Assembly (NCBI RefSeq): GCF_024345995.1
Contig: NZ_JAGQCE010000008.1
Coordinates: 1 to 64,000, forward strand
Direction: 5' to 3'
Source: Synechococcus sp. Cruz-7E5
GTDB taxonomy: Bacteria > Cyanobacteriota > Cyanobacteriia > PCC-6307 > Cyanobiaceae
DNA length: 64,000 nt
Shown here piece after piece: positions 35,839 through 42,357 of this stretch (the first letter of the stretch is position 1; each line of letters begins with the position of its first letter). The notes beneath the pieces are model-generated. The model made no database searches. It had not been told where the DNA came from and saw only the letters and a list, made by a program, of their open reading frames with translations. The translations under genes were made by a program, and so were the position numbers.

Positions 35839-36402
35839 ATGGCTCCCCTGCCGCCGCCTGAGCCATCCATCCACCTGGAAACCACGGCGGCTCTCGAGGC
35901 CCGCAAGCTTCGCTTCGAGCTCAACCGGGTGCTGCTGCCGATGGGGGTGGAGGGCACCTACGGGATCATTCGCCATCCGGGCGCTTCCCTGGCGGTCCCG
36001 GTCCTGGCTGACGGGCGCGTGGTGGTGCTGCGCCAGTACCGATTCGCCGTGGAGCGGCGCATTCTCGAGTTCCCCGCCGGCACCCTTGAAGACGGTGAAG
36101 ACCCCCAGGACTCGATGGAGCGGGAGCTGGGGGAGGAGGCGGGCTACAGCGCCAGCCGTTGGGATTCCCTCGGCGTGATGCTGCCCTGCCCCGGCTATTC
36201 CGATGAGGTGATCCACCTGTTCCTGGCCCGGGAGCTCTCCCCCCTCAGCGAGCGCCCCGACGGGGACGACGACGAGGACCTGGAGGTGCTCCTGCTGGAG
36301 CCCGCTGCCCTCGATGCGGCCCTGGCCAGCGGTGATGAGGCCCTCGATGGCAAGAGCGTCACCGCCTGGTTCAGGGCCCGCCAGCTGCTCGGCCTCGGAT
36401 GA
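35839..36402 (+). CDS. Nudix hydrolase (ADP-ribose pyrophosphatase type)
   Basis: The 187-residue protein has a complete Nudix box, GTLEDGEDPQDSMERELGEE continuing AGY, at about residues 81-103. It has the preceding FPAG typical of ADP-ribose and nucleotide-sugar hydrolases. It cleaves an NDP-linked substrate into NMP and a phosphorylated part. The stop overlaps the photolyase start by 4 bases (ATGA), suggesting coupled translation with DNA repair. Confidence 0.93.
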   Translation: MAPLPPPEPSIHLETTAALEARKLRFELNRVLLPMGVEGTYGIIRHPGASLAVPVLADGRVVVLRQYRFAVERRILEFPAGTLEDGEDPQDSMERELGEEAGYSASRWDSLGVMLPCPGYSDEVIHLFLARELSPLSERPDGDDDEDLEVLLLEPAALDAALASGDEALDGKSVTAWFRARQLLGLG

Positions 36403-37898
36403 ACCCGCCCCGCTGGTTGTTCTGGCACCGCCGCGATCTGCGCCTGGCTGACAACCTGGGCCTGGCCGCCGCTGCCCGCGCCACTGCAGCCGTCACCGGC
36501 GTGTTCGTCTTCGATCCGGCCGTGCTGGAGGCCAGGGACCATTCACCGTCCGGGCTCTGGTTTCTGAGTGAGAGCCTGCGGGAGCTGCAGCTCAGCTGGC
36601 GAAAGGCCGGTTCCCGCTTGCTGCTGTTGCGCGGGGATCCGGCCGTGGTGCTGCCGCAGCTGGCTGAGGCCAGCGGCGCTGCCGTGGTGGCCTGGAACCG
36701 GGATGGGGAGCCCGATGGCCGTGCCCGCGACAGCCGTGTCGCTGAGGCCCTGCGCGCCAGCGGCCGCAAGCTGCTCTCCGACTGGGACCAGCTGCTGGTG
36801 TCCCCAGAGGCGCTGGCCACCGGCGCTGGCGATCCCTACCGGGTCTATGGCCCCTATTTCCGGGCATGGCGGCGTCGGATCGAGCAGGCAGGCCCCGAGG
36901 CCTGTGCTCCCGTGCCTGCTCCGGCCGGCCTGATTGATCTTGATCCCGGCTCCCTTACCGACGAGCGCCGCCGGCTCTGGGACCGGCTCGACTGGCTTGA
37001 GACCGTGCCCAGCGCCGGCGATGGCCTGCCCGCCGCTCCCTTCGGAGGGGCCGATCTCTGCCCCTGCCGCCCCGGTGAGGCCGCCGCCATCACCCAGCTG
37101 GCCGCCTTTGCGGATGGGCCTCTGCTGCGTTACGAACCAGGCCGCAACCTGCCGGCGGAGCCGGGCACCTCGGGGCTGAGCGCCGCGCTCAGGTTCGGCA
37201 CCCTCAGCCCCCGCCAGGCCTGGGCCGCCGCCCAGGAGCAGCGCCCGCGTGCGCGCAGTGAGGAGGAACTCCAGGCGATCACGGTCTGGGAGCAGGAACT
37301 GGCCTGGCGCGAGTTCTACCAGCAGGCCCTGTTCCATTTCCCCGAACTGGCCGAGGGCCCCTACCGCCCCCAGTGGCGCCGCTTCCCCTGGGAGAACGAC
37401 GAGGCTCGTTTCGCTGCCTGGTGCGATGGTCTCACCGGCGTGCCCATCGTGGACGCTGCCATGCGCCAGCTCAATGAATCCGGCTGGATGCACAACCGCT
37501 GCCGCATGATCGTGGCCTCCTTCCTGGTGAAGGACTTGATCGTGGACTGGCGCTGGGGTGAGCGCCAGTTCATGCGTCTGCTGGTGGACGGTGATCTGGC
37601 GGCCAACAACGGCGGCTGGCAGTGGAGTGCCAGCAGCGGCATGGACCCCAAGCCCCTGCGCATCTTCAACCCCTATACCCAGGCGGCCCGTTTTGATCCC
37701 GACGCCACCTACATCCGCCGCTGGTTACCCGAGCTCTCGCGGGTGGCCACGGCCGATCTGATCCGTGGAGAGATTGCGCCCCTGGAGCGCAGGGGATACC
37801 CGGATCCGATCGTGAACCACAAGCTGCAGCAGGCCCACTTCAAGGCCTTGCATGCGGCCTCGGTGGCTGCGCCTCAGGAGGCCAGGCTGAGGGGCTGA
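36399..37898 (+). CDS. phrB: Deoxyribodipyrimidine photolyase
   Basis: The 499-residue class I CPD photolyase has the antenna domain from WLFWHRRDLRLADN. The catalytic FAD domain holds FGTLSPRQAWAAA, WREFYQQALFHFP, GWMHNRCRMIVASFLVKDL, FMRLLVDGDLAANNGGWQW and FNPYTQAARFDPD. It repairs UV cyclobutane dimers with blue light. It is translationally coupled to the Nudix gene. The last 25 bases overlap the convergent aminotransferase gene. Confidence 0.96.
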   Translation: MNPPRWLFWHRRDLRLADNLGLAAAARATAAVTGVFVFDPAVLEARDHSPSGLWFLSESLRELQLSWRKAGSRLLLLRGDPAVVLPQLAEASGAAVVAWNRDGEPDGRARDSRVAEALRASGRKLLSDWDQLLVSPEALATGAGDPYRVYGPYFRAWRRRIEQAGPEACAPVPAPAGLIDLDPGSLTDERRRLWDRLDWLETVPSAGDGLPAAPFGGADLCPCRPGEAAAITQLAAFADGPLLRYEPGRNLPAEPGTSGLSAALRFGTLSPRQAWAAAQEQRPRARSEEELQAITVWEQELAWREFYQQALFHFPELAEGPYRPQWRRFPWENDEARFAAWCDGLTGVPIVDAAMRQLNESGWMHNRCRMIVASFLVKDLIVDWRWGERQFMRLLVDGDLAANNGGWQWSASSGMDPKPLRIFNPYTQAARFDPDATYIRRWLPELSRVATADLIRGEIAPLERRGYPDPIVNHKLQQAHFKALHAASVAAPQEARLRG

Positions 37899-39106: not shown

Positions 39107-39676
39107 TCAGGCCCAGGCCGGCTCCAGCCCGGGGTGCCACTTGATGTTGCAACCGATTGCAGGCTTTTGCCCGGTGCTCAGCGGCCTTCCCGCCAGCAGC
39201 GAATCGAGGGCCGATCGCAGGTCGGCGCCATCGGGTGCCTGGCCGTTGCCCGGGCGGCTGCCATCGAGCTGGCCCCGATAGACGAGCTGATGCGCGGCGT
39301 CGAAGAGGTAGAGGTCGGGGGTGCAGGCGGCACGGAAGGCCCGGGCCACGCTCTGGTCGGCATCGAGCAGGTAGGGGAAGCGCCATCCCACTCGTTGCCG
39401 CTGTTCCGCCAGTTGGCTCGGACCGTCCTGGGGATGGGTGCGCAGGCTGTTGCTCGCGATCGCCAGGATGGTGATGTGCTGGCCGTAGTCGCGATCGATC
39501 CGGGCGAGTTCCGGCTCGATGTGTTTCACGAATGGGCAGTGGGCGCAGAGAAAGAGCACCAGTAGCGGCCGTGAAGGCAGATCGGCGCTGTTGTGAACGG
39601 TGCCATCGAGAGCGGGCAGCGCGAAGGCCGGCAGCGGCGTTCCCAGCGGAACCATCGTGGATGGGGTGAGTGCCAT
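39107..39676 (-). CDS. Thioredoxin-fold redoxin (AhpC/TSA-like)
   Basis: The 189-residue thioredoxin-fold protein has a CAHC motif at residues 44-47 (VLFLCAHCPFVKH) and a cis-Pro region TPDLYLFDA. It resembles the cyanobacterial thioredoxin-family proteins with a CxxC active site rather than one-Cys peroxiredoxins. It could reduce disulfides or peroxides in the cytoplasm. The ATG given is the family-like start (MALTPSTMVPLGTPLP). It follows the aminotransferase start by 27 bases on the same strand. Confidence 0.85.
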   Translation of the reverse strand: MALTPSTMVPLGTPLPAFALPALDGTVHNSADLPSRPLLVLFLCAHCPFVKHIEPELARIDRDYGQHITILAIASNSLRTHPQDGPSQLAEQRQRVGWRFPYLLDADQSVARAFRAACTPDLYLFDAAHQLVYRGQLDGSRPGNGQAPDGADLRSALDSLLAGRPLSTGQKPAIGCNIKWHPGLEPAWA

Positions 39677-39701
39677 CAGCGTGTGATCACAGAGGGAGGC
39701 T

Positions 39702-40304
39702 GTGGTGAGTCTTGCGTCCGTTTCAATGGGCGTTGTGGGTGAAGATCTGCCCGTTCGACCCGAAGCGGTGCCCCGGTCCGATCTCTCCTCCAGGTTCGGC
39801 CTCCGTGCCGCTGCTGGTCTGATGGCCGCCTTGGCGGCAGCGCTGCTCGCCGGCGGCTGTGTGCCCGCCCATCGGAGCGCCAGCTGGAAGAGCTTCCCCC
39901 TGCAGCGGCAGCAGCCCCACGACGGCCTGGCTGTCGTCAGCCAGCCCGACGGCTTTGGGCTGCACATCTGGCTCGAAACCGATACCAGCCGCAAGGGCTA
40001 CTGCCGTCCGCGCTGGCTGCCGGATCCAGCGCGGCTGTTCAACGGCAACGGCAGCCACCCCTTCAGCTCCGGTCTGGCCAGCCGCGAGGAGTTCTTCGCC
40101 GCCGTCGCCCGCCGTGACGTGCGACGGGCCCTGCGCAAGGAACTGGAAGCCCTCTGCCTCAGTCGCGCCCCGCGCAGCACCTGGGAGTGGATCGAGCCGC
40201 CCCTGAATCCCGCCCAGGTGAAGGTGGAGAAGCTGCCGATGCTGGAGGAGAAGGATCTGCTGACAGATCCCGAAACGATCCGCGAGCAGGAGGATCAGCC
40301 GTAG
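39702..40304 (+). CDS. Putative lipoprotein of unknown function
   Basis: This protein of about 200 residues has a long N-terminus followed by a hydrophobic segment (GLMAALAAALLAGGC). That ends in a lipobox Cys, so it is probably membrane-anchored outside the cytoplasm. The mature part has DTSRKGYCRPRWLPDPARLF and a Glu-rich C-terminus. No domain is recognised. GGGAGG lies before the two adjacent GTG starts; an ATG at 39726 is the alternative. It ends 6 bases from the convergent PPTase. Confidence 0.7.
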   Translation: MVSLASVSMGVVGEDLPVRPEAVPRSDLSSRFGLRAAAGLMAALAAALLAGGCVPAHRSASWKSFPLQRQQPHDGLAVVSQPDGFGLHIWLETDTSRKGYCRPRWLPDPARLFNGNGSHPFSSGLASREEFFAAVARRDVRRALRKELEALCLSRAPRSTWEWIEPPLNPAQVKVEKLPMLEEKDLLTDPETIREQEDQP

Positions 40305-40310
40305 CAGGGC

Positions 40311-40979
40311 TCAGAGCAGGGCGAGGCTGCCGGCATAGCCCTCCGGCAGTTGGAGATCGTGCAGCTCCAGGCCTGGTGGTGGTGGGGCTCCGACTGCGGC
40401 CAGGCCGAGTCCCGTCGCTTTCAGGCCCGCCTCCAGGCGGCACCAGTGCTGCAGGAAGCCGCTGAGCTGCTCCGCTGGAGGCAGCGCCTCGAGGGCTTCG
40501 AGGCAGCCTCTGGGCAGGTGGCGCCTGGCGATCGACCGCCAGTTCAGGCCGGGCCGGTGCTTCTCCACATCCACGCCCACCGGCCGCTCGGGGTGGAGGG
40601 CCAAAAGCACCAGGGCGCCCGAATGGGCCAGGTTGAACTGCAGGGTGTCCCGGCTTTCCAGCCCCTCCAAGGCGGGCTTGCCCTGGGGCCCCAGGCGAAA
40701 GCGCAGCCGGGCGGGCTCCAGCCCCAGAGCCTGTCCCAGCCGCAGCCGCAGCAGGCCCCGTCCCAGCAGGAAACGGTCCTGGTCCGCGGGCAGGCGACAG
40801 CGCCGCAGCCGCTGATGCTCGTCGCTGCAGAGCAGTGCCAGCAACTCCCCCCGCCGCTGGGGGGTCAGCCAGCCCAGCCCCGCCAGCCAGACCGTGGCCG
40901 GTAGCGCTGGCTGCTCCAGCCGGCGCGGCGCGGCCTGGCCGGGGGCGCTGGGGGCGGTGTGTTTGCTGGAATCGATCAC
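40311..40979 (-). CDS. 4'-phosphopantetheinyl transferase (Sfp/HetI type)
   Basis: The 222-residue enzyme has FLLGRGLLRLRLG, GKPALEG, QFNLAHSGALVLLAL and the Mg-binding GVDVEKHRPG. It activates acyl or peptidyl carrier proteins by adding the pantetheine arm. The usual WxxKEAxxK motif reads WCRLEAGLKATG, with Leu in place of the first Lys and the metal-binding Glu kept. It overlaps the photolyase-like antenna gene by 4 bases. It could serve fatty acid or polyketide carrier proteins. Confidence 0.9.
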   Translation of the reverse strand: MIDSSKHTAPSAPGQAAPRRLEQPALPATVWLAGLGWLTPQRRGELLALLCSDEHQRLRRCRLPADQDRFLLGRGLLRLRLGQALGLEPARLRFRLGPQGKPALEGLESRDTLQFNLAHSGALVLLALHPERPVGVDVEKHRPGLNWRSIARRHLPRGCLEALEALPPAEQLSGFLQHWCRLEAGLKATGLGLAAVGAPPPPGLELHDLQLPEGYAGSLALL

Positions 40980-41425
40980 GATGACTCCAATGGCCCGGCG
41001 AGATCCGGCCGCAGCAGGGGCCCCGCTGAGCGCCAGTAGCGGCTGAAACGACCCAGGTCCACCGGCTCCGGCAGGTCCACGAAGGGTTCAGCCTCCAGCA
41101 CCTGCAGGGGCAGGGCGGCGGCCACGCAGGCGGCGATGCCCCCCAGCTGGGGGTCCACCCAGGCGCTGGTCACCACCCCATCGGCCCGGTGGCGGGCGGC
41201 GAAGGCCAGCACCTCTTCCGCCCCATGGCCCTGGCGGATCGTGACCGGCAGCTCCAGCAGGCACTCGTAGAGGAAGACGATCCGCTTGAGGCTGATCGGC
41301 CCGGCGGCGCCCTCCAGCAGCCCCGGCTCGAAGACGAACAGGGCCGGCCGGCCTGGATGGGCCAGCAGGGCGGGATTGGCCGGACCCAGGGCCTCGGCGT
41401 GGATCCAGAGAACCGGACAGTCCAT
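40976..41425 (-). CDS. Photolyase antenna-domain-like protein (separate N-terminal domain)
   Basis: This 149-residue alpha/beta protein resembles the N-terminal photolyase domain. It has ALFVFEPGLLEG, RIVFLYECLLELPV and GHGAEEVLAFAARHRADGVVTS, echoing the FVFDP, FLxESLxxL and GdpxxVL patterns of complete enzymes. The normal RxDLRxxDN start is absent and it stops before any FAD domain. It lies 2 bases after a gene coding for just the FAD domain, so together they look like a split, order-swapped photolyase/cryptochrome. It may also be a degenerate remnant. Confidence 0.75.
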   Translation of the reverse strand: MDCPVLWIHAEALGPANPALLAHPGRPALFVFEPGLLEGAAGPISLKRIVFLYECLLELPVTIRQGHGAEEVLAFAARHRADGVVTSAWVDPQLGGIAACVAAALPLQVLEAEPFVDLPEPVDLGRFSRYWRSAGPLLRPDLAGPLESS

Positions 41426-41427
41426 GC

Positions 41428-42357
41428 TCAGACCGCCTCGCCCTTGGCTTGATCATCCAACTGCGGTGCGGAGAACAGGCGGGTCTGCAGATCCTCGTAG
41501 CTGCCTTCGAATGGACAGGCCTCCGCGGCCGGGCAGCCTGGGCAATGGCGCCCGGCGCCGAAGCGCTCCAGGTTGGCGCGATTGAACAGGTAGGGCTTGC
41601 TGCTGAAGCTGCTGGCCACCCACTGCCAGCTCAGGTTGTTGCTGGCGGCATCACCATCGAGCAGGTGGCGCAGAAACCAGCTGGCCCCGGCCTGCCAGCG
41701 CACCCGGCGCCAGTGCACCACGTAGGCAGCCAGCCACATCCTGGCGTGGTTGTGCAGCCAGCCGGTGTCGATCAGCTGGCGCGCGAAGGCATCGATGCAG
41801 GCCAGGCCGGTGCGGCCCTCGCGGATGTCATCCGGCAGCTCCTGGGCGTAGGCCGCCTCCCGCTGGCCGGTCTTGAGCGGCTCTTGGTTCTCCCAGATGT
41901 CATCGCCCAGACGGATCCAGAGCCGCTGCCAGTAGTCACGCCAGGCCAGCTCCTGCAGCAGCTTCTCGCTCACCAGCCCGGGACCTCTGGCCATGCGCTG
42001 CCGCACCACGTCGCGCACCTGGGCCAGGCTCAGAACCCCGTGGCGGATGTAGGGGGAGAGACCGCTGACCGCGCCGTCGAGGTGGTTACGGCTGGCGACA
42101 TAGCGCTCCGGATCGACGGCTGCCAGCGCCGCGAGCGCCGGTTTTGAGCCCCCGCGAATCGGGCTGGCGCCGCCGCTGGCCAGGGGAAAGCGGGCAGCAA
42201 GCTCCAGCACCATGGCCCCCCGGTCCGGGAACTGGCGCGGCAGGTCGGCGCGGTTCGGTTGTGGGGGCGGCGCCGGTTCTGAAGGGGGAGTGCTGGACGT
42301 CATCGCTGGCTGAGGGGCGCGGCCGGGAGCCGCTGGAAGCGGTGGAGGAGAATCCAC
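41428..42357 (-). CDS. FAD-binding photolyase/cryptochrome C-terminal domain, stand-alone
   Basis: This 309-residue protein is mostly the FAD-binding half of photolyases. It has HGVLSLAQVRDVVRQR, LLQELAWRDYWQRLW, DTGWLHNHARMWLAAYVVH and RHLLDGDAASNNLSWQW. No antenna domain precedes it; the N-terminus is a Pro-rich tail of ~30 residues. A C-terminal CPGCPAAEACPF has three Cys, which may bind metal but does not match the four-Cys FeS photolyases. Its GTG start has AAGGA upstream. The antenna-like domain is encoded next. Confidence 0.85.
   Translation of the reverse strand: MDSPPPLPAAPGRAPQPAMTSSTPPSEPAPPPQPNRADLPRQFPDRGAMVLELAARFPLASGGASPIRGGSKPALAALAAVDPERYVASRNHLDGAVSGLSPYIRHGVLSLAQVRDVVRQRMARGPGLVSEKLLQELAWRDYWQRLWIRLGDDIWENQEPLKTGQREAAYAQELPDDIREGRTGLACIDAFARQLIDTGWLHNHARMWLAAYVVHWRRVRWQAGASWFLRHLLDGDAASNNLSWQWVASSFSSKPYLFNRANLERFGAGRHCPGCPAAEACPFEGSYEDLQTRLFSAPQLDDQAKGEAV

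Follow-up and report, generated by a model that had tools for sequence, protein, structure and literature searches.

Short photolyase-like proteins (SPLs) have been described as a class, with an Fe-S cluster (PMC9649867), and SePhrC of Synechococcus elongatus is listed among them (PMC9178010). Two papers, both citing Xu 2021, describe SPLs as lacking an antenna domain and propose them as ancestors of all photolyases and cryptochromes (PMC9649867, PMC9498864). NewPHL (Emmerich 2020, as cited in PMC13274461 and PMC8948257) is characterized by an 'inverted domain topology' (PMC13274461), and a Trp dyad is reported for the Dinoroseobacter NewPHL (PMC8948257). Here we analyse a stretch of 64,000 nucleotides of Synechococcus sp. 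Cruz-7E5 (contig NZ_JAGQCE010000008.1; 'the window' denotes this whole stretch), in which one gene encodes the flavin adenine dinucleotide (FAD)-binding half of a photolyase and the next a small antenna-like protein. Together the two genes probably specify a single DNA-repair photolyase made of two subunits, a split form of the SPL/NewPHL class with its inverted topology. The SPL, NewPHL and the inverted order are already known. No description of an alpha/beta subunit that has a gene of its own and almost always accompanies an SPL was found in a narrow literature search that did not cover the founding NewPHL and SPL papers.

Comparison with described photolyases

The FAD half shares with SPLs such as SePhrC the residues typical of enzymes acting on cyclobutane pyrimidine dimers (CPDs) and, with some members, four cysteines. 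SPLs are described without an alpha/beta domain, whereas 45 of 45 sampled SPL-bearing cyanobacterial genomes encode one, separately or fused behind the SPL. NewPHL has in common with the pair a catalytic domain in first position and a Trp dyad only (PMC8948257). It is a single polypeptide, however, as opposed to two genes in the window, and the NewPHL-like proteins in this analysis are without the four-cysteine set of the window SPL. The FeS-BCP or prokaryotic (6-4) photolyases (PhrB, CryB) have four conserved cysteines as well, the last three of them in a CxxC...CPF tail, and one structure of this family, 3zxs, is the best structural match of the small protein. They consist of one chain with the antenna domain at the N-terminus, in contrast to the window pair, and the sequence of the FAD half, with its CPD contacts and its Asn at N240, is nearer to class I. 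Class I CPD photolyases (1QNF, 1DNP and the full-length enzyme of the window) have two domains homologous to the two halves, but the pair differs from them in its swapped order, its two genes, the absence of the third triad Trp and a truncated C-terminus, in place of which stands the cysteine tail.

In a tree of FAD domains, the split and fused proteins grouped with the SPL and NewPHL rows, apart from 18 of 21 full-length rows; the three other full-length rows, on long branches, and the NewPHL rows join this tree by long and uncertain branches. The inverted order, with the catalytic part before the alpha/beta part, is seen both in the gene order of the window and in relatives in which the two parts form a single open reading frame (ORF).

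The probable FAD-binding subunit

The larger protein matched PF03441 with E = 4.8e-25 over profile positions 2-126 of 203 and gave no match to PF00875; it is a photolyase FAD domain that has no N-terminal alpha/beta domain and is missing the last part of ordinary FAD domains. An alignment to class I photolyases and to the 139 distinct SPL sequences gathered in this analysis shows that it retains the residues for CPD and flavin contact. Among the 139 SPLs, E136, W139, N203, R206, M207, N240 and W246 are nearly or fully invariant, E136 being replaced by Gln in 16 sequences and M207 by Leu in 21. The contact residues of E. coli photolyase correspond as follows: E136 to E274, W139 to W277, N203 to N341, R206 to R344, M207 to M345, D234/D236 to D372/D374, N240 to N378 and W246 to W384. 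The Trp dyad W221 (W359) and W244 (W382) is invariant in the same set, while inspection of the alignment revealed no counterpart of the surface Trp306 of E. coli photolyase, so that the third Trp of the triad is absent.

A three-cysteine tail had been noted in the first-pass annotation of this locus. The CxxC-x5-C tail (C272, C275, C281) is indeed present, but the conserved set comprises four residues, the additional one being C187 in the motif TGLACID. All four occur in 132 SPLs including the window copy and all four are absent from five; other patterns are confined to a truncated copy (L084), a non-SPL row (L202) and NewPHL-like proteins. Joint loss is expected of residues that share a metal cluster, and the four cysteines are probable ligands of a [4Fe-4S] cluster. 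The five SPLs without any of them (L087-L091, family f24) retain the partner gene and provide a natural control for the Fe-S cluster.

An AlphaFold2 model of the FAD half (mean predicted local distance difference test, pLDDT, 79) found its best structural matches among photolyases (Z approximately 19). By these comparisons the FAD half is an SPL: the part of a CPD photolyase that would bind FAD and the lesion, with no N-terminal domain but with four additional cysteines.

The small protein

The small protein of the window alone had no Pfam match. Of its orthologues, 33 out of 54 matched PF00875 (DNA_photolyase) at E<=1, the best at 2.6e-5. Comparison of the small-protein profile with photolyase N-domains by hhalign gave a probability of 97 and a score of 72; the highest score among 200 column shuffles was 28, and the reversed profile scored 12.7. 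The match extended over the whole small protein when the alignment was forced to extend, including the last aromatic helix, where RFSRYW stands opposite PYFRAW of the window photolyase. An AlphaFold2 model (pLDDT 87) ranked photolyases first in Foldseek (1qnf, E 6.3e-6), and in VIA 3zxs aligned over 110 residues with Z 12.6 and an rmsd of 2.1, covering photolyase positions 1-126; USP-like folds ranked below. Because of the profile match and the predicted fold of photolyase N-domains, the small protein is classified as a free-standing antenna-type domain, in line with the earlier suggestion of an antenna-like half, whose proposed fold check gave a positive result. No matches were returned by a sequence search of the PDB with this protein, and no homologue was found in a phage collection, on which ground phage spread of the gene was rejected.

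Against eight C-terminal domains of NewPHL-like proteins, the small-protein profile scored 38 (maximum after shuffling, 20). For the six alphaproteobacterial ones the values were 28 and 20, and for the two Persicobacter ones the match was not significant. With moderate confidence, the NewPHL C-terminal domain thus appears to be homologous to the small protein.

Gene arrangement, co-occurrence and fusions

As the first-pass annotation had stated, the FAD-only gene is followed by the antenna-like gene after two bases, the reverse of the normal order, and a full-length photolyase is encoded nearby. The ATG of the small gene lies two bases past the TGA of the FAD half (TGAGCATG) and in a different reading frame, so that a lone stop codon within one gene cannot explain the split. 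The gap is identical in 9 of 9 genomes of the genus; this constancy rules out a sequencing error, and the spacing is consistent with translational coupling. Two starts are possible for the FAD half, the GTG at 42357, which comes first, and the ATG at 42303 (residue 19); the latter is the likelier, because homology starts near residue 38 and the Met is kept across the genus.

Among 194 genomes of the cyanobacterial class, the small gene was present in 46, an SPL (cut-off E<=1e-30) in 45, and both in 45 (Fisher p 1.6e-43, or 8e-23 by genus, both values inflated by relatedness). In 301 genomes of the phylum Chloroflexota, the small gene was found in 19 with strong E-values and an SPL in 18, all within the 19. 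The pair is accordingly conserved in 45/45 and 18/18 SPL-bearing genomes of the two groups. In several genera, for example f26/g48, the genes are far apart and yet both retained. Linkage was examined in the best 80 small-gene loci of a reference-genome scan: the SPL is on the same strand in 72 of these, mostly immediately upstream of the small gene, and in the other eight it is encoded elsewhere in the genome in 7 of 7 checked, L133, which begins at a contig end, being left out. That relatives in three bacterial phyla keep the genes together or fuse them suggests one enzyme. A contig labelled as a Blastopirellula metagenome-assembled genome (L135, NZVR01000033.1) is probably misbinned, its SPL grouping with marine Synechococcus.

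Ten picocyanobacterial loci contain single-ORF fusions with the FAD half first and linkers of about 25-70 residues in which Pro, Ala, Ser and Gly are abundant; in two of the ten, the FAD side is truncated by the end of the contig. Four of the fused loci (L113, L115, L129, L130) have the same fabI and phosphopantetheinyl transferase (PPTase) neighbours as the window and hence represent its locus in fused form. On Deinococcus plasmids three fusions were found, together with a fourth case of two genes overlapping by 4 bases, and two further fused loci belong to the Chloroflexota phylum. The occurrence of a single intact gene in relatives had been named as an argument against the split; the one-gene relatives turned out to be the opposite, namely fusions of the FAD half followed by the antenna domain. 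The swapped order is thus a real topology of the class and not the product of a broken gene. By parsimony on the FAD-domain tree the 'fused' label requires six changes, of which at least two are forced by well-supported branches. Joining or splitting has consequently been repeated, as expected if the parts assemble either way. On a Persicobacter plasmid (L187, 1-3558), a fused SPL-like protein is encoded directly beside another gene of the photolyase/cryptochrome family.

A probable two-subunit photolyase

From homology, conservation, linkage, fusions and co-occurrence we infer a complex in which the larger protein would bind FAD and take a flipped-out UV dimer into its pocket, the dimer being most likely a CPD. 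A chain of two Trp residues, probably together with a [4Fe-4S] cluster, would keep the flavin reduced. The small protein would associate with the FAD subunit in trans and close its exposed face as a lid, and it may carry a light-harvesting chromophore. Docking in the place of the N-domain is suggested because the SPL has no N-terminal domain and the small protein has its predicted fold. In other lineages the same two parts would be joined by a flexible linker, and NewPHL would be a fused form of the same two-part enzyme. More tentatively, the cyanobacterial SPL could be, rather than an antenna-less photolyase, an enzyme that always requires the small protein as its second subunit, an antenna or lid acting in trans; the small protein might then preserve a state before the two photolyase domains were joined, and the fused inverted forms and the usual order might be separate joinings, a scheme that we regard as possible though doubtful.

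Some observations weigh against the two-subunit proposal. The small gene occurs without an SPL in one cyanobacterial genome (G097) and one of the second phylum (G291), and the Fisher statistics, calculated across related genomes, are inflated by shared ancestry. In addition, the Cruz-7E5 genome has no match to CofH, the FO synthase, at E<=1e-20, so that 8-hydroxy-5-deazaflavin (8-HDF) is not an obvious chromophore. CofH matches are present in many other SPL-bearing genomes, and the pair occurs with and without them. As an obligatory chromophore 8-HDF was rejected on the basis of the missing match in this genome.

The occurrence of the pair irrespective of the FO synthase gene also favours a narrower version of the proposal, to which we give slightly less than an even chance, that the small protein is a structural lid only, which closes off the FAD site without binding a chromophore. 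In keeping with this, the RRDLR motif of the photolyase N-domain is replaced by H-G-D in the small-protein consensus, the alphaproteobacterial NewPHL-like C-terminal domains match the antenna profile weakly, and the C-terminal domain of NewPHL is itself reported to be a lid without chromophore. On the other hand, the fold is that of the antenna domain, and the invariant polar residues R48 and E54 could serve a pocket. It is unlikely that the small protein is instead a regulator in its own right, or a nucleotide-binding protein of the USP type, working with the SPL as neither antenna nor lid subunit: a weak Usp match was obtained for 11 of 54 members (best 0.0026) and USP folds do appear lower in the structure list, but photolyase N-domains outrank them in sequence and structure, and the fusions place the small protein in cis with the FAD domain.

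The first-pass annotation had imagined that the two products could reassemble into a repair enzyme or a light sensor. That they work together is probable in view of the co-occurrence in two phyla, the fusions and the predicted fold; the sensor was not supported. Cyanobacteria do have sensors of blue light, and close by lies the gene of a full class I photolyase, yet the CPD-repair and FAD-contact positions examined are conserved in the 139 SPLs, and the hallmark of a cryptochrome, loss of the repair residues or replacement of the Asn near FAD N5, is not seen, N240 and the CPD contacts being retained. Furthermore, an SPL of Rhodococcus is said to repair CPDs, in a study by Xu from 2021. To judge from the sequences, the pair is more likely to repair DNA than to sense light, and a cryptochrome-like sensor is very improbable. 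The split gene, the short halves and the nearby full photolyase might also suggest a decayed enzyme whose two remnants are adjacent by chance, but in cyanobacteria, Chloroflexota and Deinococcus alike the two halves are conserved with uninterrupted reading frames, they are kept even when unlinked, and their order is the reverse of the usual one. Decay is excluded by this conservation.

Should the domain that SPLs are said to lack be supplied in trans, the argument for SPLs as ancestors needs revision, and assays of SPLs purified without their partner may have measured half an enzyme. The genes occur unlinked, adjacent and fused, a natural series in which the origin of the two-domain photolyase can be tested, with the clade without the four cysteines as a control within it.

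Neighbouring genes

The positions of the genes and sites are listed in Table 1. Upstream of the FAD half lies fabI in divergent orientation. A link to the PPTase gene had been suspected because of its 4-base overlap with the small gene. The overlap was confirmed, but of 80 related loci only 11 have a PPTase beside the pair, for which reason coupling as a general feature was rejected; the PPTase is a local syntenic neighbour outside the system.

Table 1. Positions of the photolyase pair, its sites and neighbouring genes in the window.
Feature	Position	Strand	Remarks
SPL, probable FAD-binding catalytic subunit (FAD half)	41428-42357	-	309 aa from first possible GTG; PF03441
Free-standing photolyase antenna-type alpha/beta (Rossmann) domain protein	40976-41425	-	149 aa; ATG start
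2-base intergenic gap (TGAGCATG)	41426-41427	-	Sequence; same in genus
Four-cysteine set, probable [4Fe-4S] ligands	41515-41799	-	C187 41797-41799; C272 41542-41544; C275 41533-41535; C281 41515-41517
Sfp/HetI-type PPTase	40311-40979	-	PF01648 + PF22624
Full-length class I photolyase, both domains	36399-37898	+	PF00875 5.6e-45; PF03441 3.6e-75

The full-length photolyase resembles the 8-HDF type (TIGR03556, below cut-off) in a genome without a CofH match. Two further genes of the photolyase family are found on another contig of the same genome (G000:C12:249145-251255), about 1.3 kb apart and on opposite strands. Finally, the listed start regions of two ORFs on opposite strands, one redoxin-like and the other small and conserved (39107-39994 and 39702-40304), overlap each other; the redoxin-like ORF probably starts further in than listed.
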